Below, piece by piece: positions 22,359-37,428 of a stretch of DNA of 64,000 nt. The position numbers and the translations under genes are program-made. Numbering within the stretch: position 1 is the stretch's first letter; every line of letters starts with the position of its first letter. The stretch comes from Gloeocapsopsis crepidinum LEGE 06123 (GTDB lineage: Bacteria > Cyanobacteriota > Cyanobacteriia > Cyanobacteriales > Chroococcidiopsidaceae), in the NCBI RefSeq assembly GCF_015207655.1, contig NZ_JADEWN010000019.1, positions 1-64,000 on the forward strand, read 5' to 3'. Below the pieces are notes generated by a model. It was not told where the DNA came from. It searched no databases and worked only from the letters and a program-made list of their open reading frames with translations.

Positions 22359-22450
22359 TTGTTTGCTCCTTGGTTGTTACGTAGATAAAAAGAACAACCG
22401 CAATTAATACGGCTGCTACAGTGAGTTTTGAACTCATCAACGATTATTTT

Positions 22451-22990: not shown

Positions 22991-23043
22991 TGTTTTGTTC
23001 TTTCAAGTTTTGTAGATGGGAGGAATTGCAGCTCCCTTATTTC

Positions 23044-23391
23044 TTATGCGAGTGCTTGTATTAGTTGTTGTTTGGTCATCGAACCGTAGCCTTTGATATG
23101 GGCTTGGCTAGCTAATTTCTTTAGTTCTCTTATTTTTAAAACACCTAGCTCTTTATTAAGTATTTCTACTGTAGGAACCTCGTCAGCCTTGCTATCAATA
23201 GCAGTAACTGTTTTAGGTATTTCATCTTTAACCTCTCCTTCATAACTATCAAGAGCTGTTTTAGTTGTGCTTAGTTTCATCCACTCTTCACACAATCCAC
23301 ATACGAAGTTTGCAACCACCAGTGTGGTGTAGGCTATACAAATTGTGTTGAAGCTGAGTGTTAGCAATGCTTGTACTTGTGTAGCGTCCAT
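23044..23391 (-). CDS. Membrane protein with C-terminal Rho-N/SAP-like domain
   Basis: 115 residues. Residues ~10-34 are a hydrophobic helix with the start MDATQVQALL. The C-terminal ~38 residues (ELKKLASQAHIKGYGSM then QLIQAL) match the Rho N-terminal/SAP-like fold, which binds nucleic acid. A membrane helix tied to a nucleic-acid-binding motif could tether element DNA at the membrane; that is speculation. It is divergent from the XRE gene at 23564, which shares the ~170-bp promoter region. Confidence 0.6.
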   Translation of the reverse strand: MDATQVQALLTLSFNTICIAYTTLVVANFVCGLCEEWMKLSTTKTALDSYEGEVKDEIPKTVTAIDSKADEVPTVEILNKELGVLKIRELKKLASQAHIKGYGSMTKQQLIQALA

Positions 23392-23563
23392 TTTTTAATC
23401 CTTTGGGAGGGGTTATCTGTAGCGTTCTTTCCTCCTCTGATGAACCTAATCTAACAGCTAACTAATACAGTAACAAGAAGTTGTAGCGTTTCTTTACAGC
23501 TAGCTGTATCAAGTATGTTATTATTAGGCTGTAATGACTAATATGGTTGAGGTCTAGCGTGTA

Positions 23564-23785
23564 GTGAGGAGAGTTAAATCAAATCTGGCTAAGTTAATTG
23601 ATGGGCAATATCCTCCGCTTAGTCAAAGGAGATTGGCAAGAGAAACGAATCTCTCACCTACAACCATTAATTTGATTTATCTAAATAAGTTCAATCGTAT
23701 AGATAACGCAACAATTGAAAAACTATGCGATTACTTCGGAGTTGAGATAGGAGAATTACTTTATCTAGAAGAAGCAAAAGATTAA
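23564..23785 (+). CDS. XRE-family HTH regulator
   Basis: 73 residues forming a compact Cro/CI-type helix-turn-helix. SQRRLARETNLSPTTINLIYLN is the HTH and LCDYFGVEIGELL the usual closing helices. The start is GTG; the preceding in-frame ATG region is interrupted by stops, and GAGG-like bases precede the GTG weakly. It is divergent from the leftward secreted-protein genes and upstream of the rightward block at 24.2-25.7 kb, so it may be the element's switch repressor. Confidence 0.8.
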   Translation: MRRVKSNLAKLIDGQYPPLSQRRLARETNLSPTTINLIYLNKFNRIDNATIEKLCDYFGVEIGELLYLEEAKD

Positions 23786-23825
23786 GGATATGGTTTTAAG
23801 TTCCATAGCCTTAATAAGTTATAGA

Positions 23826-23993
23826 TTATTCATCTTCTTCTTTTGATTTAATCGCAGTAATACCAATAGTTTCTAATAACAACGGGTAGTTATCCCGAAG
23901 TTCGGCAAGTTTCGGAGATTGTATACCAAAAGCCGAACTCAGTAATACGTAGGCAATAGGTAAAAGCAGAAAGAATTTGCTCAATTTACTCAT
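23826..23993 (-). CDS. Short exported/membrane peptide
   Basis: A 55-residue ORF (MSKLSKFFLLLP...) with an N-terminal hydrophobic helix to about residue 23 and an acidic end (KSKEEDE). It resembles in layout the other small exported proteins of this end of the element. It converges on the XRE gene. The ribosome site is weak, so support is moderate. Confidence 0.45.
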   Translation of the reverse strand: MSKLSKFFLLLPIAYVLLSSAFGIQSPKLAELRDNYPLLLETIGITAIKSKEEDE

Positions 23994-24220
23994 GAAGATG
24001 CTCACTTGTTAGTGTTCATCAATTACCTTGTAAAGCTATCTATTTTGCTTAGCAGATAGTGACGTTCATATCCTTAAAGGTTCTGAAGTTGATGTAGACA
24101 GTAATAACCTAAACCAAGGTTATTACTACTGTTCCTATGACATACCTGGAGTAGGCGAGTCAGTAACAGTAATGCTACATAAGTCTGCATTTGAGTGACA
24201 CAACAACAAATAGTACACAC

Positions 24221-24242
24221 AGCGCTTGGAGGCGCTTTTTTT
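24221..24242 (+). promoter_or_regulatory. Hairpin with T-run holding the Shine-Dalgarno of the next gene
   Basis: AGCGC-TTGGAG-GCGCT followed by eight T looks like an intrinsic terminator. The T-run ends exactly at the ATG at 24243, and the GGAGG within the loop/stem edge is the only ribosome site. Folding would both end transcription and hide the ribosome site. Confidence 0.5.
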
Positions 24243-24404
24243 ATGCCTAAATACAGGTACAAGTTTCAGATAGGGAATCACGAGATTGAGATTAAGGCAG
24301 AGAATGACCTTGAAGCAGTGAAAAGCTTAAAGGACATCATTCAGGTATTGGCTGAAATAGTACAAGAAGATAACAACACGGAGAATTACGATGAAAGCAA
24401 GTGA
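24243..24404 (+). CDS. Small acidic element protein
   Basis: 53 residues starting MPKYRYKFQIG, with a beta-rich start and an acidic helical end. I chose this ATG over a longer GTG start at 24195 because the longer form would translate through the terminator-like hairpin, and GGAGG is correctly spaced to the ATG. It overlaps the next gene by 14 bp. No family recognised. Confidence 0.6.
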   Translation: MPKYRYKFQIGNHEIEIKAENDLEAVKSLKDIIQVLAEIVQEDNNTENYDESK

Positions 24405-24867
24405 GTTGGTAAGTATATCCGAGCAAATCTCTTCTATATCTTTACAACTAGCTAACTTACAGAGATTAGTTGACTCGTCAATAGAAAGAGCGCCTACATA
24501 TGAGTCTGCAAAAGTTAGAGTAGAAGATGCAAGGAAAGAAACAAAGGGAATATTTTCACCTAGTGTAAAAGCGGTTCCCGCACAAGAGCTAATGTTTAAG
24601 AGCTTATACTTGCTGATGTTTGATTTAGGTATAAACTGGGCATCAGCTACTGACATAAAGAAAGCTCAAGCGTTAGTGACAGGCAACCAAAAAGAGAAGT
24701 GTTGCCAAAGTAACCTCAGAGTTATAAACAGAATAGGTGAAGAATATATCACTAAGAATAAGCCGACAAAATCAGCTAGAGCTACTGTCAGGTATGCATT
24801 AACTGAAAGAGGAGTAGAGAGAGCAAAACAAATTCTAGGAGTAGTAGAAAATGAAAGTGAAAACTGA
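24391..24867 (+). CDS. Hypothetical element protein, possible winged-helix end
   Basis: 158 residues. Residues ~1-30 are predicted helical (coiled-coil-like). The C-terminal ~60 residues (RVINRIGEEYITKNKPTKS and RYALTERGVERAKQ) look like a winged-helix DNA-binding domain ending in the common TERG wing. It overlaps genes on both sides (14 and 17 bp), so it is translated as part of a three- or four-gene unit. Function not known. Confidence 0.6.
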   Translation: MKASELVSISEQISSISLQLANLQRLVDSSIERAPTYESAKVRVEDARKETKGIFSPSVKAVPAQELMFKSLYLLMFDLGINWASATDIKKAQALVTGNQKEKCCQSNLRVINRIGEEYITKNKPTKSARATVRYALTERGVERAKQILGVVENESEN

Positions 24868-25609
24868 ACTTGTAGGAGAAGCGTGGAAAGTCAAAGCTAA
24901 GTACGCTGGAGTTGATGACGGTTCAGGTGAGTTTGAACCTAATGAGATTAAAAAACCTAAGCAGTTACCTCCATCATCCAGTGCTGTCGTACAAGACTTA
25001 GACTACGGTAGTCCTGAGTGGATAAAACGAACTCATGACATGGCAATGCTGTTTGAGGGAATGGCTCATACGTACAAGATGGATATGGGGCAATTCTTAC
25101 GAAGTAAAAAAGAGAAACGGGGATGGATGAAGTTTGTTGAAACTTTACCCTTTACACGTCAGACTGCCGACAACTACATTGAGTACTACGAAAAAGCAAA
25201 GGGTTTACCTCATTTAGACGTTCGGTATAAGGAAGAAAATCAAGAGCGTCGGGTAGTGCAACCGTTTTGCACTACACCGGAACCCTCGGAAAATAAGGAT
25301 TCTTCAAGTGAAAAATCTGGGGAAACTGTAAGAGAAGCAGACGCAATTACAGAATTGGTAGTGGTGAGAGACTATGAACAAGTAGTCTCCACCAAAACAG
25401 ATACTAAGAAGGAGAACAAATACAAGCGCCAGAAGGAAGACCAAGTTAGAGGAAGAGTAGAAATTTCTACTACTCCAGAAATCAAAGAAATAATTAGAAC
25501 GAGAAGAATACAGCTTGGTTATAAAACAGACTGTGACTACTTACTGCATTTAGTCATGCAAGACGCGATTAAAGCAGGTTTCACCTTACCAGAAGAGAAT
25601 GAACAATAG
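24851..25609 (+). CDS. DUF3102-like / RHH-type DNA-binding element protein
   Basis: 252 residues. The middle (GWMKFVETLPFTRQTADNYIEYYE) resembles the DUF3102/plasmid-control HTH type, in which a protein senses being one of many in a recombination or partition array. The C-terminal ~50 residues (RGRVEISTTPEIKEIIRTR) look like a ribbon-helix-helix or CopG-type domain. Between them is a Ser/Glu-rich linker. It is probably a plasmid-maintenance or transcription regulator. The family match is from pattern memory, not a search. Confidence 0.55.
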   Translation: MKVKTELVGEAWKVKAKYAGVDDGSGEFEPNEIKKPKQLPPSSSAVVQDLDYGSPEWIKRTHDMAMLFEGMAHTYKMDMGQFLRSKKEKRGWMKFVETLPFTRQTADNYIEYYEKAKGLPHLDVRYKEENQERRVVQPFCTTPEPSENKDSSSEKSGETVREADAITELVVVRDYEQVVSTKTDTKKENKYKRQKEDQVRGRVEISTTPEIKEIIRTRRIQLGYKTDCDYLLHLVMQDAIKAGFTLPEENEQ

Positions 25610-25748
25610 AATATTCACACTGCGATTCTACCGCCCTATATGGAGTGATTGGTTATCTTATCTAAGCTATCTTATAGGGCGAGTTCTTGGGTACAACATG
25701 GACTTATCTCATGTAGCTATCGAGTGGGATGGTGGAATACTAATTTAG
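25599..25748 (+). CDS. Candidate short ORF ending DLSHVAIEWDGG
   Basis: A 49-codon ORF that starts inside the end of the previous gene (ATGAACAATAG overlap). The sequence IGRVLGYNMDLSHVAIEWDGG is unlike random translation and recalls the start of permuted papain-like or NlpC-type folds, where a His follows DxSH. It stops early and lacks the rest of such a domain. The inverted repeat 25632-25681 lies within it. It converges on the next gene with 4 bp overlap. Confidence 0.4.
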   Translation: MNNRIFTLRFYRPIWSDWLSYLSYLIGRVLGYNMDLSHVAIEWDGGILI

Positions 25749-26293
25749 AATACTCCTAGGGGATAAATTTTCATTAGTTCCTTTGTAAGTCTCTCTCGAA
25801 CACCATCTTTTATTATTGCTTTCTTCTCCCATAACTTGACACCATGACAGATTTCTCCACAAAATATGTCTACTTGTAGCTGTAAAGTATGGTGCTTGTC
25901 TTTAATCACCTTATTGCAATGAGCGCCTCCATGTTTTCTCGGTGCTACAAAACAAAACTTATCTAATACCGTACGAGCTTGACTACTAATATCATCTGAG
26001 CCAGAATGCAGGTATGCACACCGCAGAGCATAAAAATCCTCAGCAGTAAGAAAAGGTTTATTAATGTGTGTGGCTTCTACATTGTTGGTTAATGAATCTA
26101 AAGGGAAGTTTAAAGACTCAGAGTAATATTCCGGCATATACTTCTTGAACCATTCTTTATAACGTTCTCCAGTTTTTCTCTGAGGTTGTTCCAACCATCC
26201 ACAGATATCTGGAAGTGTAAGAGCGAGTGCTAAAGCTGCATACCAGTTCTGTTGTTCTAGTGCTTGTTCTACAGCTTCAATAAGGTGTTGCAT
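25745..26293 (-). CDS. HEPN-like protein with R-x4-H motif
   Basis: 182 all-helical residues. The N-terminal half has the block ALALTLPDICGWLE then GERYKEWF, and residues 91-96 read RCAYLH, the R-x4-H signature of HEPN RNases. A family of small proteins with this layout (…TGERY…, then RC-x-LH-G) is widespread in bacteria and usually unannotated. HEPN proteins often act as RNase toxins or in anti-phage systems. No MNT partner is adjacent. Call from motif only. Confidence 0.6.
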   Translation of the reverse strand: MQHLIEAVEQALEQQNWYAALALALTLPDICGWLEQPQRKTGERYKEWFKKYMPEYYSESLNFPLDSLTNNVEATHINKPFLTAEDFYALRCAYLHSGSDDISSQARTVLDKFCFVAPRKHGGAHCNKVIKDKHHTLQLQVDIFCGEICHGVKLWEKKAIIKDGVRERLTKELMKIYPLGVF

Positions 26294-26421
26294 AATCTAA
26301 AAGATAAACACTTCTACTTCTACCTCATTGTGTGTGCGGGACACTTACAATTATTCAACTTCTTGATTTCTTGATTAACACTTCAAAATTACAACTACTT
26401 TGTAAAGTTATTTAGCTTGAT

Positions 26422-26625
26422 GTGACAGATGAAGGACACAATGTCCACGACTGTGGACAAACCTTAGAATGTAGTCTGGAAGCGGAAGATGAAAAGCCCA
26501 AAAAAATGTGGGAGATACACTCACATTTCAAGAACCTATACAGGGAGAGAGTTTATTTTCTCAACTGCGTAACTCCTGCAGGAGAAAAGTTAGAAACCTT
26601 ACTTATAAATAAGATTCACAGTTGA
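26422..26625 (+). CDS. Small hypothetical element protein
   Basis: 67 residues from a GTG start, with a charged, Glu-rich beginning and two Cys. No family, weak ribosome site. Kept because it is the only open frame in this rightward interval and the following two genes share its orientation. Confidence 0.35.
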   Translation: MTDEGHNVHDCGQTLECSLEAEDEKPKKMWEIHSHFKNLYRERVYFLNCVTPAGEKLETLLINKIHS

Positions 26626-26753
26626 AGAACCGGATACCTCCTATAAATTAAGAAAAATCAATTTTTGAAAACATTTTTTAAAGTTTTTACTAACAACATA
26701 AAAATTAGTCATTCTAGATATAGTTAATGATTCTATATATAGCAAGGAGACTT

Positions 26754-27116
26754 ATGTTTTACAGCACTTGCCACACTACAAAGAGTTCTTCTCAAGAAGT
26801 TATCAAGAAGGAAAAACTCGTTGAAAATCCTGTAGAGGATATAACCTTTACGCCTGAGCAACAAGAAGAAACTGTAATAAATCATGCAAAAGGAGATGAA
26901 GCTAAATTTTTACTCAATACCTACTACGGAAACAGTGAAAATCCATTTTATCTTAGTAATGGAAGGTTTTATTGGTGGTCAGATGCATCTTCTACATCAT
27001 ATTGTGGAAATGTGCAGCACTCGACCTCTTTTGATAATATGAAGTCATTTACATCTGCTGGAGTATGTCCAGATAATTATACAAAGTACACAATAATAAC
27101 CTATAGACCTATTTGA
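26754..27116 (+). CDS. Hypothetical protein, possible exported or peptide-like
   Basis: 120 residues from the ATG at 26754, chosen because AAGGAG lies correctly upstream; a start at 26727 would lack it. The N-terminal half is Lys/Glu-rich. The C-terminal ~55 residues are rich in Tyr, Trp, Ser and Asn with two Cys (SYCGNVQ and AGVCPDN) and look like a small secreted or peptide-type domain. Neighbour to the Cys-rich 27287 gene. No family recognised. Confidence 0.55.
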   Translation: MFYSTCHTTKSSSQEVIKKEKLVENPVEDITFTPEQQEETVINHAKGDEAKFLLNTYYGNSENPFYLSNGRFYWWSDASSTSYCGNVQHSTSFDNMKSFTSAGVCPDNYTKYTIITYRPI

Positions 27117-27286
27117 GCTTGCCACCTATCAATAACGCTTTACCTTTAAGAAAGCATTTATGTATGGCTAGCACCACAACCTATTTAAGATTGCTATAAC
27201 GAGTTTCTTGAATCGAAAAACAATCCTTTAGACAATTTGTAGTCTCAAGGCATTGGTATTTTTGTCACTTTTTGGAGTTAAATAAC

Positions 27287-27544
27287 ATGAAAGTTATTGC
27301 CCACGGATTTCGTAAAAGAGAAATTAATGGTGAAATAGTTTATGAAGCATTACCAGCTCCCTCTAGAGAAGAACTTGAACAAATTCAGGCTGAAGTTGAG
27401 GCTCAAACAGGAAGGAAAGTATCTTCTTCTGGTGGCTGTTATTTGATGGCAAGCGGAGGTGTATTGAGTTGTCATAATGAATCATGTGTAGGTTATTGTT
27501 ATCACCAAAGAGGAAATGATGAAAGATGTATATGTACTATCTGA
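27287..27544 (+). CDS. Cysteine-rich peptide precursor-like protein
   Basis: 85 residues. Residues 1-46 are an acidic, helical, leader-like segment (PAPSREELEQIQAEVEAQTG). It leads to SSSGG, a Gly-Gly that resembles a double-glycine leader-cleavage site. The last ~35 residues hold six Cys (two as C-x-C). The arrangement resembles RiPP or bacteriocin precursors. No modification enzyme or peptidase transporter is nearby. Start at 27287 from GGAG spacing. Function inferred only. Confidence 0.5.
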   Translation: MKVIAHGFRKREINGEIVYEALPAPSREELEQIQAEVEAQTGRKVSSSGGCYLMASGGVLSCHNESCVGYCYHQRGNDERCICTI

Positions 27545-27557
27545 TAGCTCTAGGTAA

Positions 27558-27779
27558 GCGCATCTAAGCTCGACTTTATCCATTAGGCAGCGTAGTAGTA
27601 GGAAGCTTAAGGGCAAGCCAATTAAAGAAGTTGTACCCCGCTACCAGCAGGAGCGTTTCTCCTGGTTTCAACGCAAGTATAGAAAACTCGTTGTTCGATG
27701 GGAACGCCTGAAGGTATATTTTGATGCTTTCCTTTTCCTTGCCACATCCTACATCTGGTTTCCCAAGTTAGTGGGATAG
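27558..27779 (+). pseudogene. IS5-like transposase fragment
   Basis: An open stretch ending at a TAG at 27777-27779 encodes GKPIKEVVPRYQQERFSWFQ then RKLVVRWERL, the C-terminal block of IS5-group transposases (V-x-R-W-x-x-E-R-x-x-x-W, then R-R-L-x-x-x-W-E). There is no start codon, no upstream half and no intact DDE core. It is a remnant of an insertion inside the element. Confidence 0.6.
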
Positions 27780-27859
27780 GTTCATCATTACCTTTAACCA
27801 TCTTTGTCTAGATTCTTGATTCTAGACTTAACAGGATTTCGCGCAAGCTCTCTTCTGAG

Positions 27860-28162
27860 TCATCTTCCTGCCCTACGGAGCCTTACGTTTTCAGTTGTAA
27901 CCAGGAGTCTGCGCTGAATCTGTTCTAAGTCTCTGCGCTTGGTAACGCTAGATGCTACGTTCTCACCTGTGATGTTTAACCGTCTACCTAGTTTAGTGCT
28001 ATTTGGGGCACTAATTACAGCGTGTGGGTTACTAGCTGGTTGAGGGTTTGGTACTCCGCCTATATTACCAGGAATGACTGTCTTTCGTTTCTTGGTTTTA
28101 CCTGCTTCATAAGTATTAGCATTCAAGAATTTGTTTAGTTTTTGAGCGGGTGTTGAACTCAT
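27860..28162 (-). CDS. Basic hypothetical protein at the end of the leftward operon
   Basis: 100 residues from MSSTPAQKLNKFL (start at 28162). AAGG lies upstream; a longer start at 28261 would add a hydrophobic tail-like segment without a ribosome site. Low complexity, Pro/Asn/Lys/Arg-rich, with an Arg-rich C-terminus (RLRRAGR). It could be structural or DNA-binding. It lies 165 bp after the scaffold-like gene. Confidence 0.5.
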   Translation of the reverse strand: MSSTPAQKLNKFLNANTYEAGKTKKRKTVIPGNIGGVPNPQPASNPHAVISAPNSTKLGRRLNITGENVASSVTKRRDLEQIQRRLLVTTENVRLRRAGR

Positions 28163-28326
28163 AATAATTACCTTAGTTCCTAATAGTAATTGTACAAACA
28201 TAACGTTTACAAATGTTAGAATAGAGTCATGAATAACATAAGTTTGTGCTTGTCCTTCCACTGATGTTGCATCCCAGTGGATATTTTTTGTGCCTCGACA
28301 ACTTTGTGCTTAGGAACATACGCAGC

Positions 28327-29367
28327 CTAGCGATTCAAGTCAACAAGATTTCTAGAATACGCATAATAAATTTGGTCTGCATATTTCTCATATTCAGCCT
28401 GGCTCATACGGTCTATCTCTGATTGTTTAAAACGAGTCTTAATATTGTTATTAGGTTTACTAGAAGACTTGCTGCTACCACGTTTCTCATCCCATTTCTT
28501 CTCAAGATAATTCAGAATCTTCTTGCTACCTTCTACAGAATCATAGTGTTTCTGCTTAGCAGGTGGTAACTGGTTATAAACATCAATCATGCTACTAAGA
28601 TAATAATCCCAAGTACCAGCATCAAGTTTACTCCAGCGAGGATTACTGTTTTTAATGTTGTCGAATTCCTTGGCATAGTATTCCGCTTGTGCTTCAACAT
28701 CAATCTCTTCCCGTTCTACTGGACGAGTCTTTAGCTGTTGTCGCAGGTACTCGTTCTCTTCTTTTAGTTGGCGAGTAAACGCATCTTCTTGGTAGTCTTG
28801 ACGTTCTTCCGTCCGCTCCTCAATTCCTTGAATAGGAGTTGATACCTGTTCAGTCTTCGGCTTACGGTTGAGTAAAACATCAGCAAATAGTTGTACTGCA
28901 TTATCATCGAATCCAAAATATGCAATAGCGTGCTTGGCTGTATCTGCATCAATACTAAATGTACGTTCCAAAGCACTGGCAAACTCTGGCGCTAGCTCGA
29001 TACCATCCGCTTCATCTAAGTAATCGCTGGACTCCAGATAGGCTTGGAAACCCTCATCCTCAGCCAAGGTGTAAACAGTATTAGCTACAGCTCCACCTAT
29101 CTGTAGTGATTGGTCAGGTTCGGTTAGTTCCTTCTGTTGCCGTTGGATTGCAGACTCATAAGCAGATATTTCAGAATCTAAATCTCGCTCTGGTACATCG
29201 TTAGCTGCTACAAAATCCTTCTCAAACTGTTCTGTACCTGAAGTAACCCTAGCGTCAGGGAAGTCATTGTGCCACTCGTGCTCTGGTGGTAACTCAGGAA
29301 TATCTGAAGGTGCAGGAATTGCATCAGGTAATGCGGGTGCAAGTGAACTCAAATCAAACTCAGCCAT
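28327..29367 (-). CDS. Phage-scaffold-like acidic/coiled-coil protein
   Basis: 346 residues. The start is acidic and Pro-rich. Residues ~190-215 form a heptad-type coiled coil (EDAFTRQLKEENEYLRQQL). The basic C-terminus ends RFKQSEIDRMSQAEYEKYA then a short helix, close to the FTREQIxxMSxxEFxKxE ending of many phage scaffolding/head-assembly proteins. This is the largest product of the leftward operon. No capsid, portal or protease gene is adjacent, so a scaffold role is tentative. Its start overlaps the stop of the upstream gene by one base (TAATG). Confidence 0.5.
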   Translation of the reverse strand: MAEFDLSSLAPALPDAIPAPSDIPELPPEHEWHNDFPDARVTSGTEQFEKDFVAANDVPERDLDSEISAYESAIQRQQKELTEPDQSLQIGGAVANTVYTLAEDEGFQAYLESSDYLDEADGIELAPEFASALERTFSIDADTAKHAIAYFGFDDNAVQLFADVLLNRKPKTEQVSTPIQGIEERTEERQDYQEDAFTRQLKEENEYLRQQLKTRPVEREEIDVEAQAEYYAKEFDNIKNSNPRWSKLDAGTWDYYLSSMIDVYNQLPPAKQKHYDSVEGSKKILNYLEKKWDEKRGSSKSSSKPNNNIKTRFKQSEIDRMSQAEYEKYADQIYYAYSRNLVDLNR

Positions 29368-30035
29368 TATGCCGCTCCTCCATCTGTTGGTAGTGTTCCG
29401 TTAAGTCTTTTCCGGTCGTTAAGCTGGCTTGCGTTATCCCACTTCGCTTGGATATCAGCCATGCGATTATCAGGAAGCTGTCGCACAGCGTTGTGGACAC
29501 GCCTTAGGAAGAATCTATCAATCGCTTGGTCTAGGACGTCCTGGCTCTTCATTTGGAAGGCACTGGATAGATTAATCAGATTCACCAGCAATGAGGTTTG
29601 CAACGACACCACTAAACTCTCCATATCCTGCGCCGTTGGTACAGATTTATTTCTCATCTCACCTGGTACTTCAGGCAATGGCAGATACTTCCTGTCCACT
29701 TTGGACACTACTTTAATCGTTGGTGACTTACCGTTAACGATAGTTTTAACCAAAGGATATTCAACTGTTTTGCTGTACCAAGCTTCTTTAGGCTGTGGTT
29801 CAGGTAGTGGTAAGCCTTCACAATCACTGAATAACTGTTCAAGTATTTGTGAAACAATATGCCCTGCGGGAACACCCTCATGATTGGCTAGCTTCTCGAT
29901 TCTCTGTATATCAGTTTTGTGAGCTTTGAAGCTATAGGTTTTAAAGTTCCGAAGTTCCTCACTCTTGCCTTCGTTTTTTTTCAATTCAGCCTCACGCTTT
30001 TCAGCGAATGCCTTGGCTAATTTAGTCTGTGCCAT
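29367..30035 (-). CDS. Element operon protein with RHH-like beginning
   Basis: 222 residues from ATG at 30035, which has AAGGA correctly spaced; TTG at 30044 is the alternative. The basic N-terminal ~70 residues (FKTYSFKAHKTDIQRIEKLANHEGVPAGHIVSQILEQLF) look like a ribbon-helix-helix/omega-type DNA-binding unit, followed by a mostly helical domain. It overlaps the gene before it and shares one base with the gene after it. No family named. Confidence 0.55.
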   Translation of the reverse strand: MAQTKLAKAFAEKREAELKKNEGKSEELRNFKTYSFKAHKTDIQRIEKLANHEGVPAGHIVSQILEQLFSDCEGLPLPEPQPKEAWYSKTVEYPLVKTIVNGKSPTIKVVSKVDRKYLPLPEVPGEMRNKSVPTAQDMESLVVSLQTSLLVNLINLSSAFQMKSQDVLDQAIDRFFLRRVHNAVRQLPDNRMADIQAKWDNASQLNDRKRLNGTLPTDGGAA

Positions 30036-30324
30036 CGCTATCAATTCCTTTATCTGATGGAGTTTCTTCTTTAAATGATTGAATGCTTACACCTGATTTC
30101 AGGTTGATACCAGTCATATAGTTTCTGTAGTGCGGCGGTAGTTGGGCTGTATTATATGGCTTACCATTTAACACCACATAGTATTGCCTAACTTCCTCTG
30201 GGTAATCTTCGATAGTGGTACGCTTGGGCTTCTCATGACTATCGACTGTGTACTCACCTGAGAAATAATTCCCTGAGTCAGGTATCTCAGTCGTTTGTTT
30301 TGTCGTTTTCTTTGCTCGTGGCAT
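30022..30324 (-). CDS. Small basic element operon protein
   Basis: 100 residues starting MPRAKKTTKQ with a Lys-rich start, a central Tyr-rich part (EEVRQYYVVLNGKPY) and an acidic end. It overlaps both neighbours (14-38 bp), so it is translated as part of the operon. No family recognised. Confidence 0.5.
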   Translation of the reverse strand: MPRAKKTTKQTTEIPDSGNYFSGEYTVDSHEKPKRTTIEDYPEEVRQYYVVLNGKPYNTAQLPPHYRNYMTGINLKSGVSIQSFKEETPSDKGIDSDGTD

Positions 30325-30517
30325 TACTTAATCCCTCATAAATCTTTTGTCTAAAATCTTCCATCTCTGGTGAATAACGCTCTATGCGTTGCTTCTGTGC
30401 TTCTTCCCTTGGAGTAGTATCAGGTCTATCGGTTCCTACAATGCGTGGTTTTTTTGGTTGTGGTAACTTCGATACTTCGGCGAACTTCTTGATATGTTTG
30501 GTCTGAGAACTACCCAT
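30287..30517 (-). CDS. Small basic operon protein
   Basis: 76 residues, Lys/Arg/Pro/Thr-rich and probably disordered. The start at 30517 has GGAG upstream and abuts the upstream gene's stop. It overlaps the next gene by 38 bp. No family recognised. Confidence 0.45.
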   Translation of the reverse strand: MGSSQTKHIKKFAEVSKLPQPKKPRIVGTDRPDTTPREEAQKQRIERYSPEMEDFRQKIYEGLSNATSKENDKTND

Positions 30518-30751
30518 TTAACGCTCCTGCATTACCTGTAGGAAGTTACGGCTATGTCCATTCCAGAATGTGGAGTTCTTGGTTTCGCTAGCGGGTATAG
30601 GTGCTTTAACTGGTGGTGTTATCGTGATACCGCAGTTACGCTGGAAGGTTGCAATCATCTCTGGTGTCATCTGCGATTCATGTACCTTGAGGTTATCTAT
30701 AATCCACCATCCAGCACCAAGACTGGTACAAAAGCTAGGATTGTTAGTCAT
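30518..30751 (-). CDS. Small operon protein with Trp/Cys-containing start
   Basis: 77 residues (MTNNPSFCTSLGAGWWIIDN...). GGAGG lies ~9 bases before the ATG, within the end of the upstream gene, which it overlaps by 8 bp. No family recognised. Confidence 0.45.
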   Translation of the reverse strand: MTNNPSFCTSLGAGWWIIDNLKVHESQMTPEMIATFQRNCGITITPPVKAPIPASETKNSTFWNGHSRNFLQVMQER

Positions 30752-30965
30752 TAAATGTATCCTCCATACTTGCGATTAATTTTTCCTTGTAATCATCAAG
30801 AATTACTGCCTCATTGGCAGCCAACAGGACTTCAACCGTATCTGGCTCAAAGTTGATAAATACAATGATTCTTTTGGTTCCATCACTGTCGATTGTTCTC
30901 ATATGCGCAAGCCTAGGGAATACCAGCTTAGGAATTAATGCAGATAGCAACATACGCAGCATCAT
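30744..30965 (-). CDS. Small operon protein
   Basis: 73 residues with a hydrophobic start and a mixed alpha/beta middle (RIIVFINFEPDTVEVLLAANEAV). It overlaps the gene on each side by a few bases (ATGA-type). No family recognised; operon position is the main support. Confidence 0.5.
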   Translation of the reverse strand: MMLRMLLSALIPKLVFPRLAHMRTIDSDGTKRIIVFINFEPDTVEVLLAANEAVILDDYKEKLIASMEDTFND

Positions 30966-31528
30966 TCAGTCTCCTTCATGAACTGCTTATATTGTTTACG
31001 TTGTTCAGGAGTAAAGCCAGCTATTAATCTCAAGAGATTCTCTCGTGCTGCATCATCACCGTAGTTCTTTTGCCTGAGATAATTCTTTTCGTAATCTAAG
31101 CGTCGCTGCTCCACAGCCTTATCATGTGGTGCTTTGAATCGTTTCAGCATCTCCACTTCTTCCTGCTCTAGCGTACGAAGCTGTGCCTTCTCTTCATCAT
31201 TACGAGGTGCTACGAAACGCCTAGAGAGTTTGCCTTGAGTAACCTCAGGGTCAGCAGTTATTTCATCCAACTTGGCTTGAGCCAGTCGTGCTGCTTTCTC
31301 TGCTTTCTCTCGTTCTATGCGTTGCTGTTTCTCAAGTAAAGATTTTACGTAGTTAGCACTCTTCTCTGCCTCATTCTGTCGTTGGGCATCTAACAACTCA
31401 TAGCTATCTCTGCGTATCTGTGTTGATTGTTCTGCAACACTCTTGATAGTTTCACCAGGTAAATCCTTTCTCCAAACACCTCTAGCATCTTGGTTCCAAC
31501 CAAAGTCTTGTGGATTAGCTGTTGTCAT
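30962..31528 (-). CDS. Coiled-coil operon protein
   Basis: 188 residues, very charged. Residues ~45-90 and ~110-150 form long helices rich in Glu, Lys, Arg and Gln (KQQRIEREKAEKAARLAQAK). Overlaps neighbours by 4 bp on each side. It could be structural, as in phage or conjugative scaffolds. No specific family. Confidence 0.55.
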   Translation of the reverse strand: MTTANPQDFGWNQDARGVWRKDLPGETIKSVAEQSTQIRRDSYELLDAQRQNEAEKSANYVKSLLEKQQRIEREKAEKAARLAQAKLDEITADPEVTQGKLSRRFVAPRNDEEKAQLRTLEQEEVEMLKRFKAPHDKAVEQRRLDYEKNYLRQKNYGDDAARENLLRLIAGFTPEQRKQYKQFMKETE

Positions 31529-31947
31529 ACAATCCTTCCTTGTGAAATCATATTGTTTAAATTAGCCTGCAACTTCTCAAGTTCGTGACGAGTACGCGAT
31601 AACTCAGACCTGAGACTACGATTCTGTTCTGTAAGTATTGTTGCTTCTTGTCTAGCTTCTTGAACTTTACTCTTACCAAACTGCTTGATATCTCTAAGCG
31701 ATATGTCGTATTGATGCACGTAATCTTTTAATAAGTCACGGACTAAAGCTGCAACAGTTCCATGACCTGAATACTGCATTGCAACCAATACAGCTTCTCG
31801 CAGTGGTGCATTAATCCAGAAACTATATCTGTGTTCTGTCTTCTCCTTGAATGGTGTAGGCACTGTTATCGCCCTGCTATTCCCAATGAGTGTATATACA
31901 CCTGTTATATTACATAGTGTAACATTGATTGCTACACGATTGCACAA
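31525..31947 (-). CDS. RHH/coiled-coil regulator heading the leftward operon
   Basis: 140 residues. Residues ~40-75 (YSFWINAPLREAVLVAMQYSG and VAALVRDLL) look like a ribbon-helix-helix DNA-binding unit. The last ~60 form a coiled coil (LTEQNRSLRSELSRTRHELEKLQ). It is the first gene of the operon down to 27860. The true start may be internal, since the first ~25 codons are unusual and TTACA-CTA-TGTAA, a possible operator, lies at 31910-31922 inside them. Probably autoregulatory. Confidence 0.55.
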   Translation of the reverse strand: MCNRVAINVTLCNITGVYTLIGNSRAITVPTPFKEKTEHRYSFWINAPLREAVLVAMQYSGHGTVAALVRDLLKDYVHQYDISLRDIKQFGKSKVQEARQEATILTEQNRSLRSELSRTRHELEKLQANLNNMISQGRIV

Positions 31948-32626
31948 AGGCTGTATTACCAGTAAATACGCAAAGCAAAGCTTGCTTTACTTCATAGCGT
32001 GAGTGTGACAGCTATTGTGACAGTTATGAGATTTTAGTGTATTTTATCCACCTGTTAGGATAGCTACGCCATTATAATTAAATGCTTAGTATTCCATTGG
32101 TATTCTGTAGCTACTCAGCTATTCGCTGGTAGTACGATTTATTATCAATAACTATGTATCTTTAATTCTTTAGAATTACAGGAGTATTGTAAACAATACA
32201 TTCTATAGCTATGAGTAATACTTGAATAAAGTATCACTCATAATTCTGTAGAAAAAGATTAGTCTTATAGTTCTGTCGTCCCAGCTTACACGGGGGGTAT
32301 GGCTAGCTGGGACTCCTATATTCCATGCAAGTTACAAATTATTGGCAACATAACTTGGTTACATCACTACAAATTAAAAAACACTATCCCTACACCAGGT
32401 CTACAGCACAAAGTGCATATGCTTTGCGTTAGCGGGACATATAAGTTTCACACGTACTTAGGATTAGAGACACCTTTTAGGCTTCTACAGTGTCCTCTAA
32501 TGCAACATTAGTGCATCCTTCAACCTCACTTCGTTACGGTTTCGAGTAGCTAAAGTTATTCGGAATTTCCGAATACAAAATTACTGCTTGATAAAGCGTA
32601 GCGCTATCACTTGATAAAGCGTAGCG
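31948..32626. other. Non-coding palindrome cluster, candidate origin/control region
   Basis: About 680 bp without a credible gene. It carries a 12-bp tandem repeat TGTGACAG[C/T]TAT (32004-32027) and several inverted repeats: TAATTCT/AGAATTA (32163-32178), GTATTGT/ACAATAC (32184-32199), an 11-bp imperfect pair (32213-32239), GTCCCAGCT/AGCTGGGAC with an 18-base loop (32278-32313) and ATTCGGAA-T-TTCCGAAT (32558-32574). It lies between the replication genes and the regulator-headed operon. This density is typical of plasmid origins or partition sites. Confidence 0.6.
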
Positions 32627-32638
32627 CTATCGCTTGAT
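32587..32638. repeat. 23-bp tandem repeat with GCGTAGCGC core
   Basis: Two direct 23-bp units (32587-32609 and 32610-32632) of CTTGATAAAGCGTAGCGCTA plus three variable-end bases, and a third partial unit (CTTGAT). The second copy overlaps the stop codon of the leftward gene at 32627. It could be an iteron-type site or a replication slippage product. Confidence 0.6.
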
Positions 32639-33061
32639 GAAACCATCCTCGTCTAGAGTTGCAATACAGTACCAAGTTGGATGGTTATCCCAGTAACCTA
32701 GACCTATTAAACGATTATCAGGAAGAATACAGAAACCATCACTCTGAAAATAATCAGGCGGAGCAAAACGAATAGGGTCATCCACTGTGCTTATCAGAAT
32801 CCTGCTGATGTTGAAGAATTCATCTAGGTAAGCAAATAGGTCAAATACCCGCGTCTTTAACTCTGTGGCTGTGTGAGAGTTGGGACAGGTAAAGTAAAAT
32901 TCCGTACCTGTCTTTGTGTCCCTTAGCTGTAACCCCGTGGTGTATATGACTGCACCAAGGAGTGTAGACATGTGGAAGTCTTTACTTACGGCATTGTAGA
33001 ACCTGCTTATGGCTTGCTGATTGACCTGTGTCGGTTCATTGTGCAGTATGGGGTTTTGCAT
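32627..33061 (-). CDS. Hypothetical element protein downstream of the replication gene
   Basis: 144 residues, start MQNPILHNEPTQV, separated by one base from the replication gene. It has no clear family; a region FYFTCPNSHTATELKTRVFDLF is mixed alpha/beta. Its stop codon falls in the 23-bp tandem repeat. Likely co-translated with the replication gene. Confidence 0.55.
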   Translation of the reverse strand: MQNPILHNEPTQVNQQAISRFYNAVSKDFHMSTLLGAVIYTTGLQLRDTKTGTEFYFTCPNSHTATELKTRVFDLFAYLDEFFNISRILISTVDDPIRFAPPDYFQSDGFCILPDNRLIGLGYWDNHPTWYCIATLDEDGFIKR

Positions 33062-33062
33062 A

Positions 33063-35621
33063 TCAAGTAAAGACTTTGGTTAAAAGTTCGGCGGGTATAG
33101 ACACTAACTCTTGATTCTCCATTAACTCTACCCTAGCTACCACTGGGGTATCAACCTCTTTTGCGAAAGATATAATTCTTGCTCTCTTTCCACTAAGTTT
33201 TGTATCTCCCGTTTGTATCTTAGTTGTCTCACCTACACTAAAAGTTTTGCCTGCTACAAAAACACTTGGGACACTCCCCCCCTCTATTTTTTCACCACAG
33301 TACGATTGATGGGCTGAAACTCCCTCTCTGTCTGGGTTTTGAACAATCGTAATTATGTTTTGATTTTCCAATGTAGCATCTGACACATTGCTATTCTCAG
33401 TACCATTTTTAGGTGTTTTATTATCGTAAGTATTTATTACTACGATTGATTGAAAGTCTTTCTCTGTATGGGTTTGAGTACCATCAATCGTAATCTCTAC
33501 TCTCAAACAGTGGAGGGAGTACCTTACGTCTTTTCCAGTTCGATTTTTCTTAATATTTGGTAACTTATTCAACAACTTGGACATATATTTGTATTCGCTA
33601 TCGCTGGTAATTCCAAGTAATTCTTTTAGTTCTACGCCGAGTAAACCACCACAGTGGGAGTTATCTTGTAAGACTTTGATAATACGGTTTGCCATTTCAG
33701 CCTGTTCTCGTCGTTCTGCTTCAGACAAACGTAGTTCACCCAAGTTGGTGAAGGAATTATCTTCTGTGTTCAGTTCTAGTTCATACGTAGTGCCCTCAAC
33801 ACTTTGTAAACCTGTTAGCTGTAGTTCCCGTGTATTGGTTGACTCATCCTCTACCCACTTACGCTTATCCTTGGGGTCTTTAGTCATTGGGCGCTTGAGA
33901 ATTAATAAACCCCATATAGCACCAGAGATAGCACCGCTACCTCTCAATTGGTCAACTCCTGTAGCTTGAGGGTTTTTATTTGGGTGATGAATTACCATAC
34001 AACCCACGTTAGCTTTTTCGATAATCGGGTCAATCGCGTAGAATATGTCAGCGTAAGCTTTATCGTTTTCTGAGATAGCCTTCCCTGCATTTACTGAGGT
34101 TAGTGAATCTATAACCACATTCTTGTAAAGACCAGTGGCTAAATACTTCTTCAGAATATCGACACTAAACTTAGGCAAGATGGTTACGTATTTTTTAATT
34201 AACTCCTTGTCGCCGTGAAATCTTTTCAATAGGTGGACAGCGTTCCATTTTGTACGCTCTGTACTGAAAAACAAAGTTCTACCTGGTTCCACATCAAAAC
34301 CGAGCCACTGACGTTTTGTCGCCATCGCGTACATCAAATCAATTCCTGCTATGGACTTACCTGATTTTGGTTTACCTGCAAGAATAACCACAGCACCTTT
34401 AGGCACTAAACCTGGTACTACGTAATCCTCTCCACCATCTTGGAGCAAAACATCAATATCAATTTCTAAGCCATTTTTTTCTGTTTCTCGTTTTTCCGCT
34501 CTGTGTTCTAGTAATGACTGTAGTTCAGCCTTGCCTACTCTGTGTGTAGAACAGAATTTAGCTTTTAGCCTAACCTGCTCCTCAAAATCTTCTGCCTGCT
34601 CTATGCGCTCTAGGTCTTTTCTAAACGCAGCGGAATCATCATCAAGGTTCACTGCTTCTACAAATCCGTCTTGTTGCGCCATATAAAATAAACTTCCAAT
34701 ATTAATCCCTGAGCCATTAAAACTATTCCACTTCTTCACACACTCTCCGTCCTCATACTTGCTCGATTGCTGGCTCCACTTATCCCATTCCCACAGCAAC
34801 GAATCATCGCCAGTTGAGTGAAGCGCCATGCCAATATTCTTCCACTCTTCGTAGTCATCGGCTCTATCAGATTTAAGGCTGTAAAGTGCGTCTAGGATAC
34901 GTTGCCTGTCTTTACTAGCTGAATATGGTTTAAGTGGCTTCCTGGCTTCGCTATTGACCGCTTTTTGTGGTATTAGCATCTGCTCTATAACCCACAGTGG
35001 AGCCTCTGCTATTTCAGTGAATGCCGACGAGTGAATCCAGTAATATGAACCTGTCACAGGATGTTCGCCAATAACGACAGATTGACATCCATTCCACCGG
35101 AACTCTACTTGCTCAATTTTCCCTAGCTCATCGACTACACCAGTTTTTACTTTCTTGGTTCTAATGCTGCCCCAGTATTCTTGTGGTACTCGGTAGAAAC
35201 ACGAATACCTGCCAGGTCTGCCAGATGTTACGGTTACAGTCTGTGGTAGTGCGTCACTAATCAGGTCTGTTCCAGCAAGCTTATTGATTAACTCAGTAGC
35301 ACTTTGTCCATCATGGTCAACACAAACTAAGCCGTCAGAATACTCACCTAAGAGTACTCCAACGGCTTTTATTGGTGATAGTGGATTATCGATTTCTTCT
35401 AATATCTGTTCCTTTGTTTGTGGGTGATGATTCCAATTATCTAGATATGGTCTTTTATCTTCTTTAATAGGAGTGAGCGCCCAGAAATTAGGTAGTTCTA
35501 CCAGTTGTTTTTTAAGAGGTTCCATTGATATCTTAGATATGTGGGTAGTAGTAGTAGAAATGTCAGCAGTTTTGTTGGTAGCAGAACGAAATGGCAAGCC
35601 TGATAAAACTTCTCTTCCCAT
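33063..35621 (-). CDS. Replication protein: primase-polymerase with RecA-like ATPase
   Basis: About 852 residues. The N-terminal part has a bifunctional primase-polymerase block (VGVLLGEYSDGLVCVDHDG). A PriCT-2-type domain follows (YEEWKNIGMALHSTGD then WSQQSS and IGSLFYMA). Next is a RepA/RecA-like ATPase with Walker A (AGKPKSGKSI, about residue 417) and Walker B (NVVIDSL). The C-terminal ~150 residues are less conserved. I chose ATG at 35621 (MGREV) because AAGGAAG sits upstream; the earlier ATG at 35666 lacks a spaced ribosome site. This is the element's replication initiator/helicase. Confidence 0.85.
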   Translation of the reverse strand: MGREVLSGLPFRSATNKTADISTTTTHISKISMEPLKKQLVELPNFWALTPIKEDKRPYLDNWNHHPQTKEQILEEIDNPLSPIKAVGVLLGEYSDGLVCVDHDGQSATELINKLAGTDLISDALPQTVTVTSGRPGRYSCFYRVPQEYWGSIRTKKVKTGVVDELGKIEQVEFRWNGCQSVVIGEHPVTGSYYWIHSSAFTEIAEAPLWVIEQMLIPQKAVNSEARKPLKPYSASKDRQRILDALYSLKSDRADDYEEWKNIGMALHSTGDDSLLWEWDKWSQQSSKYEDGECVKKWNSFNGSGINIGSLFYMAQQDGFVEAVNLDDDSAAFRKDLERIEQAEDFEEQVRLKAKFCSTHRVGKAELQSLLEHRAEKRETEKNGLEIDIDVLLQDGGEDYVVPGLVPKGAVVILAGKPKSGKSIAGIDLMYAMATKRQWLGFDVEPGRTLFFSTERTKWNAVHLLKRFHGDKELIKKYVTILPKFSVDILKKYLATGLYKNVVIDSLTSVNAGKAISENDKAYADIFYAIDPIIEKANVGCMVIHHPNKNPQATGVDQLRGSGAISGAIWGLLILKRPMTKDPKDKRKWVEDESTNTRELQLTGLQSVEGTTYELELNTEDNSFTNLGELRLSEAERREQAEMANRIIKVLQDNSHCGGLLGVELKELLGITSDSEYKYMSKLLNKLPNIKKNRTGKDVRYSLHCLRVEITIDGTQTHTEKDFQSIVVINTYDNKTPKNGTENSNVSDATLENQNIITIVQNPDREGVSAHQSYCGEKIEGGSVPSVFVAGKTFSVGETTKIQTGDTKLSGKRARIISFAKEVDTPVVARVELMENQELVSIPAELLTKVFT

Positions 35622-35676
35622 TGAGATAACTTCCTTTTTTGTGTAGAACAGACTGTGTAAGTACATAAGTTTTCAT
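35572..35676 (-). CDS. Possible leader peptide overlapping the replication gene start
   Basis: A 34-codon ORF (MKTYVLTQSVLHKK...) in another frame. It has a strong AGGAGGT site 10 bases upstream and runs through the replication gene's own start. Plasmids such as IncFII use short leader peptides this way to control rep translation. No conservation test is possible here. Confidence 0.4.
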
Positions 35677-35686
35677 CTTTTGGTAG

Positions 35687-35713
35687 ACCTCCTGAATTGG
35701 TAACTCAGGAGGT
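35687..35713 (-). promoter_or_regulatory. Hairpin sequestering a strong Shine-Dalgarno
   Basis: TCAGGAGGT pairs perfectly with ACCTCCTGA across a 9-base loop. The AGGAGGT arm is the ribosome site of the leader ORF at 35676. There is no T-run after it in the leftward direction, so it is better read as translational control than as a terminator. Confidence 0.5.
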
Positions 35714-35722
35714 TATTTGTTT

Positions 35723-35929
35723 TTAGTTTGTGTACGTTCTTTTCAGCTTTTCAAATGCCTCCCTAGCTTCGTAACAAGCTCTAGTATTTTTACTAAATAC
35801 TTCCTCAAAGCTTTCGAGGGAATCATCTTTCCAATCTGAATCTGATAATGCATCCTTTGCAAAATCTCCTAAAGGAGAATCGTAGTATTTTCTTTTCTTG
35901 AGAAAATCTCTAAAACTTTCTTTAGTCAT
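35723..35929 (-). CDS. YozE/SAM-like small protein
   Basis: 68 residues from ATG at 35929 (GGAG upstream; TTG at 35944 is the alternative). The sequence ESFRDFLKKRKYYDSPLGDFAKDAL matches the YozE SAM-like fold (F-x-x-[WF]-L ... P-[IL]-G-D-[LF]-A-x-[DE]). Small YozE-like proteins occur in Firmicutes and their phages. Role in the element unknown. Confidence 0.65.
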   Translation of the reverse strand: MTKESFRDFLKKRKYYDSPLGDFAKDALSDSDWKDDSLESFEEVFSKNTRACYEAREAFEKLKRTYTN

Positions 35930-35994
35930 TCTGTTAAACTCCAATTAGTACAAGTTTTGTGTAGTGCCCTGAAGAGAATTCAAGGCACTATTTT

Positions 35995-36174
35995 TTATTC
36001 ATTAGTTGTTGCTTCTAAACGCTTAGCTTTGTTAACCAAGTGGCGCTTAAAACCTCTACGCAAAGCTTCGTTAAATATTCTTGATTTGGCTCTATCTTGC
36101 GCACATGAAAGTTCATCAACCAACTCACAGATTTCAGTGTCAATGTATAAACTCACGGGTTGCTTGGTTCGCAT
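35995..36174 (-). CDS. RHH (CopG-type) regulator
   Basis: 59 residues from ATG at 36174 with AGGAGG upstream. KQPVSLYIDTEICELVDELS followed by KSRIFNEALRRGFKRHL is a ribbon-helix-helix DNA-binding protein. An earlier start at 36288 would add a hydrophobic segment without a ribosome site. Positioned between the replication cluster and the integrase, it may regulate either. Confidence 0.7.
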   Translation of the reverse strand: MRTKQPVSLYIDTEICELVDELSCAQDRAKSRIFNEALRRGFKRHLVNKAKRLEATTNE

Positions 36175-36375
36175 GGCTAATAGTAACCTCCTAGTTTGTT
36201 TGTCATAAGCTTTACTTATAACAAATATACTACAGGAGAATACACAACTTGTCAGCAACGTCAAGTTGGTTACTAAAAAACTACACAAAATTTAATAAAA
36301 GCCTGAGTGAAAAACTGCATGTCAAATCGCTGAAAGACTTACCTGGCATGGATTTGAGCCTAACTCAAATTAAGG

Positions 36376-37428
36376 CTAAAACATTGCTGGTAACTCAGGA
36401 CAGTCAATCAAATTCGCGTAGTTCTTCATTAGAACCTTGATATCGTGCCCTAGTATTTGTGCAACTGCTACGGGTGAAACGCCAGATTCTAGGAACCTTG
36501 TAGCAGCAGTATGGCGAGTGCAGTAGAACGGACGATACTCAATGGAACACGTTTCCAAGACAACCTTCCAATATCTATTGTTGAAGTTGTTTAGATTGAC
36601 CTTGTGTCCCTCAAACGTTTTAAACACCAAGTCTGTGGGTTTAGCATCGACTGGTTTCAATGTTTTTAGGACATCGCTAAGATTCTCAGGTATTGGTATT
36701 CGCCTAGCTCTATTGGTTTTTGTTGAAAGAATCCAGCAAGTCTTAAAGTCAGAGGAGATGTTACTCCAAGTTAGGTTGACCTGCTCACCTGACCGAACAC
36801 CTGTTTGAAATGCGAACTGTACGAAGGGTAGATAGTGCGGATACCAGTCTTCAAACTCAGAGATAATCATGTTTACCTCGTGTTTACTGAATGCTTCCCT
36901 AGGTTGCTTTGGTGTTACCTTGATAAGATTTTGTGCCTCAATCCAAGGATTAGCAGGCGCTTTAAGCCACTTGTAGCACGCTCCTAGGATGCAAACCTTA
37001 TCCTTTACTGTGATAGCCTCAGCATTCTCTAGGAGACTTAAAACGAACTTCTCTGCATCTTCCTCGGTAATGCTTAGATAACACTTATTGCCTAGCTTGG
37101 AGTTCTTCAGGATATTGATTAGTGCCCAGTATTTGTAGAGTGTCCCTCGTTCCACTCGTTTGGTTTTGTAAGCTGTAAACGCCTCAAAGACAGTTAGCAG
37201 ACTTTTGTTGTTATCCTTAACCTTCTCAACCTTGTACCGTTTAAGAGTCTTGTCAAATTCACCTGTATCGATATCTGTTTCAATCTGTCGTTTTAGTAGT
37301 TCGGCACGCAGGAGGTTATCTGAGGTATAACCCAATCCTGGATAAAATGCGTGCTGCTTACCATCAACTCTAAACCTCAGTCTGATGGTGTCTTTAATTC
37401 TTTCCACGGTAACTTTACCTCTTGCCAT
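36376..37428 (-). CDS. int: Tyrosine integrase
   Basis: 350 residues. The N-terminal ~65 residues are an arm-binding domain of the cyanobacterial/phage DUF3596 type. A core-binding domain follows. The catalytic domain has Arg212 (FQTGVRSGEQ), Lys near 237, Arg305 (CTRHTAAT), His328 (ILGHD) and the nucleophile Tyr337 (NYANL). In the box-II motif the usual first His is Tyr302 (YCTRH), a tolerated variant. The gene starts 54 bp inside the right attachment repeat and points inward, the classic placement next to a tRNA att site. Confidence 0.93.
   Translation of the reverse strand: MARGKVTVERIKDTIRLRFRVDGKQHAFYPGLGYTSDNLLRAELLKRQIETDIDTGEFDKTLKRYKVEKVKDNNKSLLTVFEAFTAYKTKRVERGTLYKYWALINILKNSKLGNKCYLSITEEDAEKFVLSLLENAEAITVKDKVCILGACYKWLKAPANPWIEAQNLIKVTPKQPREAFSKHEVNMIISEFEDWYPHYLPFVQFAFQTGVRSGEQVNLTWSNISSDFKTCWILSTKTNRARRIPIPENLSDVLKTLKPVDAKPTDLVFKTFEGHKVNLNNFNNRYWKVVLETCSIEYRPFYCTRHTAATRFLESGVSPVAVAQILGHDIKVLMKNYANLIDCPELPAMF

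Follow-up and report, generated by a model that had tools for sequence, protein, structure and literature searches.

A probable cyanobacterial phage satellite encoding a homologue of Saffermanviridae head-scaffolding proteins

The window analyzed here is the whole stretch of 64,000 nucleotides at positions 1 to 64,000 (forward strand) of contig NZ_JADEWN010000019.1 from the cyanobacterium Gloeocapsopsis crepidinum LEGE 06123 (assembly GCF_015207655.1). It holds a complete integrative element (21730..37526) with a leftward operon (27860-31947), one product of which, a 346-aa protein, ends in a stretch of ~100 residues that is, on profile and sequence comparison, homologous to the head-scaffolding proteins of the phage family Saffermanviridae. 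Here, we describe the element, its relatives, and the grounds on which we read it as a probable phage satellite.

The integration target is a tRNA-Ala (CGC) gene (37485..37557, minus strand; ARAGORN, Rfam). Direct repeat comparison placed the left attachment repeat, an exact 45-bp copy of the 3′ half of this gene, at 21730..21774 and the right one, which overlaps that 3′ half, at 37482..37526 (both plus strand), giving a length of 15,752 bp per repeat unit. Counting from the tRNA, the gene order is integrase, replicase, a gene for a 144-aa protein, and the operon, beyond which lie genes with no assigned role, several of them conserved in a related element (G102, below), and a small helix-turn-helix (HTH) regulator. 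The tyrosine recombinase (integrase; 350 aa, 36376..37428, minus strand) adjoins the tRNA and matches Pfam Phage_integrase (6e-21) and Arm-DNA-bind_2 (2e-6). The replication protein (867 aa, 33063..35666, minus strand) joins Prim-Pol, PriCT_2, and AAA_25 helicase domains (Pfam 2e-24, 3e-22, and 2e-19, respectively), and the gene for the 144-aa protein (32627..33061, minus strand) adjoins this primase.

The operon lies wholly on the minus strand and begins with a 140-aa gene (31525..31947), whose product looks ribbon-helix-helix (RHH)-like by eye and has a coiled coil; its Pfam matches (intermediate-filament and other coiled-coil families, below cut-off) were set aside as compositional. Genes follow for proteins of 188 aa (30962..31528), 73 aa (30744..30965), 77 aa (30518..30751), 76 aa (30287..30517), 100 aa (30022..30324), 225 aa from a TTG (29367..30044; 222 aa from the ATG at 30035), and 346 aa (28327..29367). 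Their junctions are, in order, overlaps of 4, 4, and 8 bp, one abutting pair, and overlaps of 38, 14-23, and 1 bp; the initial annotation had the range of overlaps (1-38 bp) right but counted seven such genes where eight are chained. A ninth, last small gene of the operon spans 27860..28261 from a GTG (133 aa); the gap of ~165 bp at which that annotation placed it results from reading it from the in-frame ATG at 28162 (100 aa). Most of the nine products have no relatives in Pfam, PHROGs, or NCBIfam. An RHH/CopG-like stretch spans residues 27-71 of the 225-aa protein, which matches the transcriptional regulator family phrog_3887 (3e-5) and is possibly a DNA-recognition protein.

Searched against 50,697 phage records (E limit 1), the 346-aa protein gave a single match, to a gene of Arthronema virus TR020 (QKE60853.1; residues 256-341, 33% identity, E 3e-4) that sits between portal and capsid. 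With the TR020 protein as query, 16 records were found at E values up to 0.01, all cyanophages by name or host and about half annotated as scaffold. Phages bearing this scaffold family have genomes of 39.7-44.8 kb, and in five of five opened (TR020 and four more) the scaffold gene is flanked by the capsid gene on one side and a portal or head-tail-adaptor gene on the other, the gene upstream of the scaffold in Lbo240-yong1 being unnamed and of portal size. Family members compared were Pf-WMP3 ORF33, Pf-WMP4 ORF38, LPP-1 g35, and TR020 QKE60853.1. A phage-scaffold hidden Markov model (HMM) ranked the 346-aa protein and its counterparts from three related elements (described below) first to fourth among 934 open reading frames (ORFs), with E values of 1.3e-10, 2.4e-8, 8.4e-7, and 2.5e-5 (the next ORF scored 2.0, and the lowest value among 2,000 shuffled and 4 reversed sequences was 0.13). 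In the other direction, an HMM of the element scaffolds found those of TR020, WMP3, and WMP4 (1.5e-10, 9.5e-7, and 4.1e-5), and hhalign joined the element family to the Saffermanviridae scaffolds over 104 columns (97.2% probability, E 3.5e-11). PHROG 19777, “head scaffolding protein,” matched eight of the nine members of the joint alignment, including three of the four element proteins.

The homology covers ~100 C-terminal residues, and the PHROG match is confined to the C-terminal third; farther upstream, a motif like E-x-T-F-G-x-x-x-x-D-A, seen by eye in the joint alignment and unsupported by score, may also be common. The C-terminal motif on which the initial annotation based its scaffold-like reading is present as quoted (RFKQSEIDRMSQAEY), and that reading is borne out by the HMMs in both directions, hhalign, and PHROG 19777. 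In Pfam, the protein scored best against T4 antiholin (E 0.0067, short of the family cut-off); this match overlaps the scaffold stretch and was rejected as weaker than the scaffold evidence. Profiles of the scaffold and 225-aa families, and of the small beta protein described below, gave nothing useful against the PDB.

Matches to the 346-aa protein were found in 4 of 291 genomes of the order. The joint scaffold profile, run on 388 genomes, also found four, all among the 19 genomes of one family (0 of 369 others), and a sample of 388 genomes drawn from the class yielded the window's own genome as the sole match. The related elements lie in genomes G102, G148, and G186, and their scaffolds are 22-68% identical to the window protein. 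The G102 element occupies the same tRNA-Ala with a 48-bp repeat (16,603 bp), and that of G148 a tRNA-Val (GAC) gene with a 116-bp repeat overlapping the 5′ half of the gene (16,211 bp). The G186 element is interrupted by genes reading as transposases (insertion sequences), and a search for its ends found none. The three intact elements thus measure 15.75, 16.60, and 16.21 kb and sit at two different tRNA genes. Genome G119, of the same genus, is without the element; its copy of this tRNA-Ala is occupied by another integrase element, of 4.7 kb (L072, 7304-12030), with the flanks of the window on both sides.

Common to all four elements are the 144-, 188-, 100-, 225-, and 346-aa families (the 188-aa protein shortened in G186, the 100-aa match weakest in G148, at 1.4e-13), so that the operon core, which the initial annotation had suggested seeking in other cyanobacterial islands, is kept in three further elements of the same family. 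The 140-aa family occurs in three of the four, with orthologues in G102 and G148, and neither the 73-aa gene nor the last small gene has a counterpart in G102 or the other loci scanned. Six of the eight chained genes have orthologues in the same order in G102, and their dN/dS (ratio of nonsynonymous to synonymous divergence; Nei-Gojobori, window versus G102) is 0.31 for the 188-aa gene, 0.06 for the 77-aa gene (86% identical), 0.16 for the 76-aa gene (74-76% identical), 0.17 for the 100-aa gene, 0.11 for the 225-aa gene, and 0.20 for the scaffold, all rough values because dS is 1.1-1.9; for a seventh, the 140-aa gene, dS is saturated. For the G148-G186 pair, dN/dS of the scaffold is 0.23, and the 225-aa comparison is saturated. 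The six measured genes are under purifying selection, and the operon, given their conserved order and dN/dS of 0.06-0.31, is more than a chance arrangement of ORFs.

No capsid, portal, or terminase was recognized in the element by PHROGs (27 ORFs), Pfam (18 ORFs), or comparison with three Saffermanviridae phages, and the earlier statement that no capsid gene accompanies the operon holds for the element within these searches. The scaffold gene accordingly lacks the portal and capsid neighbors that it has in phages. When 135 ORFs of at least 100 aa from the three phages were compared with 239 ORFs of three elements, the scaffold was the sole credible structural gene in common. The 281-aa and HNH-like genes of the G148 element matched Pf-WMP3/4 genes at 8e-6 and 6e-4, several others matched near 0.01 or weaker, and one that paired the G148 integrase with the portal gene of Pf-WMP4 (0.0022) was taken as chance. 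Window positions 26727-27116 weakly matched an early gene of Pf-WMP4 (2.6e-4, uncorrected for the 135 queries).

A lone shared structural gene is what the remnant of a defective T7-like prophage, with the scaffold as sole survivor, could leave. Such an origin is nonetheless extremely improbable in our view: four elements keep the operon core at the scaffold identities and dN/dS given above, attachment sites are of two kinds, boundaries are intact in three elements, and no other structural remnants were seen. A further thought is that scaffolds normally act with a coat protein, and one might be hidden among the operon products without database relatives, in which case the element would build its own capsid, as capsid-forming phage-inducible chromosomal islands (PICIs) do. 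Products besides the scaffold, however, reach at most 225 aa in the operon, the largest bearing the RHH-like stretch, and at most 252 aa elsewhere in the window element once integrase and replicase are put aside; an additional gene of the G148 element, of 398 aa, belongs by its match to a ParB-like family; and the scaffold C terminus resembles those of phages whose coat protein is unmatched in the 19 family genomes. We consider an own capsid highly improbable, and the element differs from capsid-forming PICIs in that no capsid or head genes of its own were recognized in the searches above.

The TR020 capsid protein, searched against these 19 genomes, had no match, while the same query found the capsids of Pf-WMP3, Pf-WMP4, and LPP-1 as a positive control; at that sensitivity, no such helper is resident there as a prophage. 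The scaffold had no match in plasmid records, and conservation of the operon only in conjugative plasmids, named at the outset as grounds for refutation, did not hold. Relaxase PF03432 was absent from the window's genome and occurred in G102, G148, and G186 only outside the elements; no relaxase was among the Pfam matches of the 18 element ORFs, families beyond PF03432 being covered by these general Pfam scans alone. With no plasmid match and no recognized relaxase, the reading as a conjugative element was rejected.

In G102, G148, and G186, a small beta protein (86-104 aa) is encoded after the scaffold. Outside the elements, relatives were found only in three viral contigs (L061, L062, and L063; 39-43% identity), and it had no matches in PHROGs or the PDB. 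L061 and L062 are near-copies of each other; in both, the beta protein gene stands two genes away from a large protease-capsid-like gene, connector-like genes following; in L063, it stands after a terminase-like gene (all these names come from reading the sequences). A role as a head-surface protein is plausible. Scans of 84,980 species genomes with scaffold and beta-protein alignments confirmed no relatives in either case.

The element has the features general to satellites, namely, an integrase, attachment repeats, and its own replication and regulation genes with no full virion gene set. This anatomy, the similar size of the three intact elements, and the lack of a plasmid match or recognized relaxase support the satellite origin suggested in the initial annotation. 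We consider it likely that the element is a cyanobacterial phage satellite whose scaffold look-alike acts on the capsid of a T7-like helper, likely giving a smaller shell; since it has its own scaffold and no recognizable head protein, it probably travels in the heads of an invading short-tailed phage and alters their shape. A broader version, that of a satellite family parasitizing lytic T7-like podoviruses by means of a full rival internal scaffold, joined in some members by a head-surface protein, to give small satellite-only heads, is more tentative, and we put it a little short of an even chance.

In the cycle that we envisage, the element would integrate in tRNA-Ala and, on infection by a helper phage, excise by means of the tyrosine recombinase that it encodes and replicate with its own Prim-Pol/helicase. 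The helper would be a T7-like short-tailed cyanophage of the Saffermanviridae or relatives. The late-type operon would then be expressed, the 346-aa scaffold homologue being its key product. The shared C-terminal ~100 residues would be expected to grip the coat protein and to replace or co-assemble with the helper scaffold, while the longer, different N-terminal part would set another procapsid geometry, most likely a smaller shell for a ~16-kb genome. The 225-aa RHH-like protein might, as a guess, mark or select satellite DNA for packaging. Helper identity, excision and replication on infection, packaging, capsid shrinking, and the role of the RHH-like protein are steps that we infer.

Genome lengths of 15.75-16.6 kb for the elements and 39.7-44.8 kb for the phages give a ratio of 0.35-0.42. 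Phages with this scaffold family (Saffermanviridae type) presumably have T=7 heads. By arithmetic, the volume ratio of a T=4 to a T=7 shell is (4/7)^1.5 = 0.43. Satellites are usually about one third the size of their helpers (PMC10803314), and the observed ratio is near both this figure and 0.43.

Several known systems offer comparisons. In the SaPI (Staphylococcus aureus pathogenicity island) proteins CpmB and Rcm, as here, a helical protein encoded by a satellite is related in sequence to the helper scaffold and is a proposed competitor of it (PMC12409344). The element protein differs in being longer than the phage scaffolds (345-373 versus 227-270 aa) and in having the scaffolds of T7-like cyanophages as its relatives. 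TcaP of PLE (phage-inducible chromosomal island-like element) and Sid of P4 are single satellite scaffolds that make small capsids from helper coat protein (PMC10945586), and in this the proposal is alike; both, however, act as external scaffolds, and TcaP had reportedly eluded searches for homologues, whereas the element protein is a homologue of an ordinary phage scaffold. We therefore propose that the 346-aa protein redirects helper coat, from the size ratio, the competition suggested for CpmB/Rcm, and the sufficiency of one scaffold in the case of TcaP. The Saffermanviridae scaffold itself (PHROG 19777), which we take to be an internal scaffold, has its C-terminal ~100 residues in common with the element protein; phage copies stand between portal and capsid, whereas element copies are without both and differ in their N-terminal part, which is also longer. 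Like this element, tycheposons are integrated and are proposed to be satellites, with cyanobacteria among their reported hosts; they are described from marine bacteria. They are named in PMC11389934 and PMC10803314.

If the same scaffold instead served as a dominant-negative decoy, it would poison helper head assembly and protect the host, with transfer secondary or achieved by other means. Satellites often block their helpers, competition with the helper scaffold is the mode of action proposed for Rcm and CpmB, and interference lowers phage titer (PMC12409344); a decoy would also fit the lack of a recognizable DNA-packaging gene. We regard it as unlikely, since a mobile, packaged element is indicated by the integrase, the self-encoded replicase, and the near-equal size (~16 kb) of three elements, and a pure defense gene would not need the other operon genes, which are under selection too. 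Alternatively, the scaffold could recruit helper coat into normal-size heads with element-specific features, the DNA traveling as a concatemer, as in phage-inducible chromosomal minimalist islands (PICMIs), which fill a full-size head in this way (PMC10803314). This is very unlikely in our estimate. According to PMC10803314, PICMIs have no remodeling gene, whereas a scaffold homologue is here kept under selection, and the element fits 2.4-2.8 times into the phage genome lengths, so no whole-number concatemer is favored. The element also differs from PICMIs in its sites, tRNA-Ala and tRNA-Val rather than next to fis.

Against the satellite reading and its capsid mechanism stand several points. 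The PHROG 19777 matches are modest (window, 1.1e-3; G148, 1.9e-3), the G186 protein has none, and no convincing alignment is obtained between the N-terminal half of the element scaffolds and that of the phage scaffolds. AlphaFold models from single-sequence input (pLDDT 45 for the 346-aa and 42 for the 225-aa protein) are too poor to show a fold. The small beta protein was not found in the window's own element, and no packaging gene was recognized there. The element was found in just 4 of 19 genomes of a single family, and it was not found in viral contigs by pattern-based scans with scaffold, 225-aa, and primase queries, which reach fairly close relatives only. Packaging in helper particles, and a helper for these hosts, are things that we infer.

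New satellite types have been found in Cyanobacteria and Actinobacteria (PMC11389934), so satellites in cyanobacteria are as such not new. Few satellite capsid-remodeling mechanisms have been reported so far (PMC10945586), and the element is a candidate capsid-remodeling satellite in non-marine-type cyanobacteria whose remodeler can be traced by sequence to the scaffold of a named phage family. As that family has cultured members, the guess at the helper is concrete and the size-setting part of the scaffold, perhaps the N terminus, is open to a swap test. A literature search by title and start of abstract, with most subscription papers outside its scope, found no description of the element.

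Among the remaining features, a near-perfect palindrome upstream of the operon (32212..32240, inside a conserved ~134-bp block at 32140-32273) is a possible operator; G102 has it at the equivalent position, where one base pair of the palindrome is altered on both sides. The G148 element holds two copies of an 18-base palindrome-like sequence (L009, 6915 and 13529), one of them ~220 bp upstream of the operon. A gene for a small protein (97 aa, 35995..36288, minus strand) has a 49% identical counterpart in the G102 element and no PHROG match. The sister elements differ in their replicases, AAA_25 in the window (33063-35666) being replaced by DUF3987 in G102 (L007:17038-19569), with Prim-Pol/PriCT_2 in both.

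A primase search matched 60 of 291 genomes. Fifteen of the loci were examined (a sixteenth is a 100-base stub of G119), and none carried a scaffold, so the primase was ruled out as a marker of the element. Four had integrase-profile matches (G148:C7, G186, G013, and, weakly, G156) and one, G148:C7, the 144-aa gene; that copy ends at a contig edge beyond the 144-aa gene, where a scaffold is possible. A second transposase-broken element in G186 (L047; G186:C1:2996000-3015900) adjoins tRNA-Pro. Its integrase and primase are related to those of the window element, it includes genes that resemble a small terminase and a tape measure (named from reading the sequences), and it gave no scaffold match.

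Several far-side genes are kept in the G102 element, among them that of an HTH repressor-like regulator (73 aa, 23564..23785, plus strand; phrog_8, 3e-8; 85% identical) and two overlapping conserved genes with no role assigned (158 and 252 aa, 24391..25609, plus strand; 72-73% identical). An accessory protein (182 aa, 25745..26293, minus strand) had no PADLOC match and belongs to phrog_18591, a family seen in 46 phage records; most of these are of Arthrobacter, with Acinetobacter, Bacillus, and Escherichia among the rest. A small ORF inside the element (27272-27544, plus strand; 90 aa when read from a TTG) is possibly a peptide precursor: one half is charged and resembles a leader, the end is rich in Cys, and there is no Pfam, PHROG, or NCBIfam match. 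Two genes at 19973-21168 (minus strand), which lie beyond the element, look decayed, since a GmrSD/NsnA-like gene (252 aa, shortened) and its neighbor (171 aa) have longer copies in G119 (355 and 328 aa).

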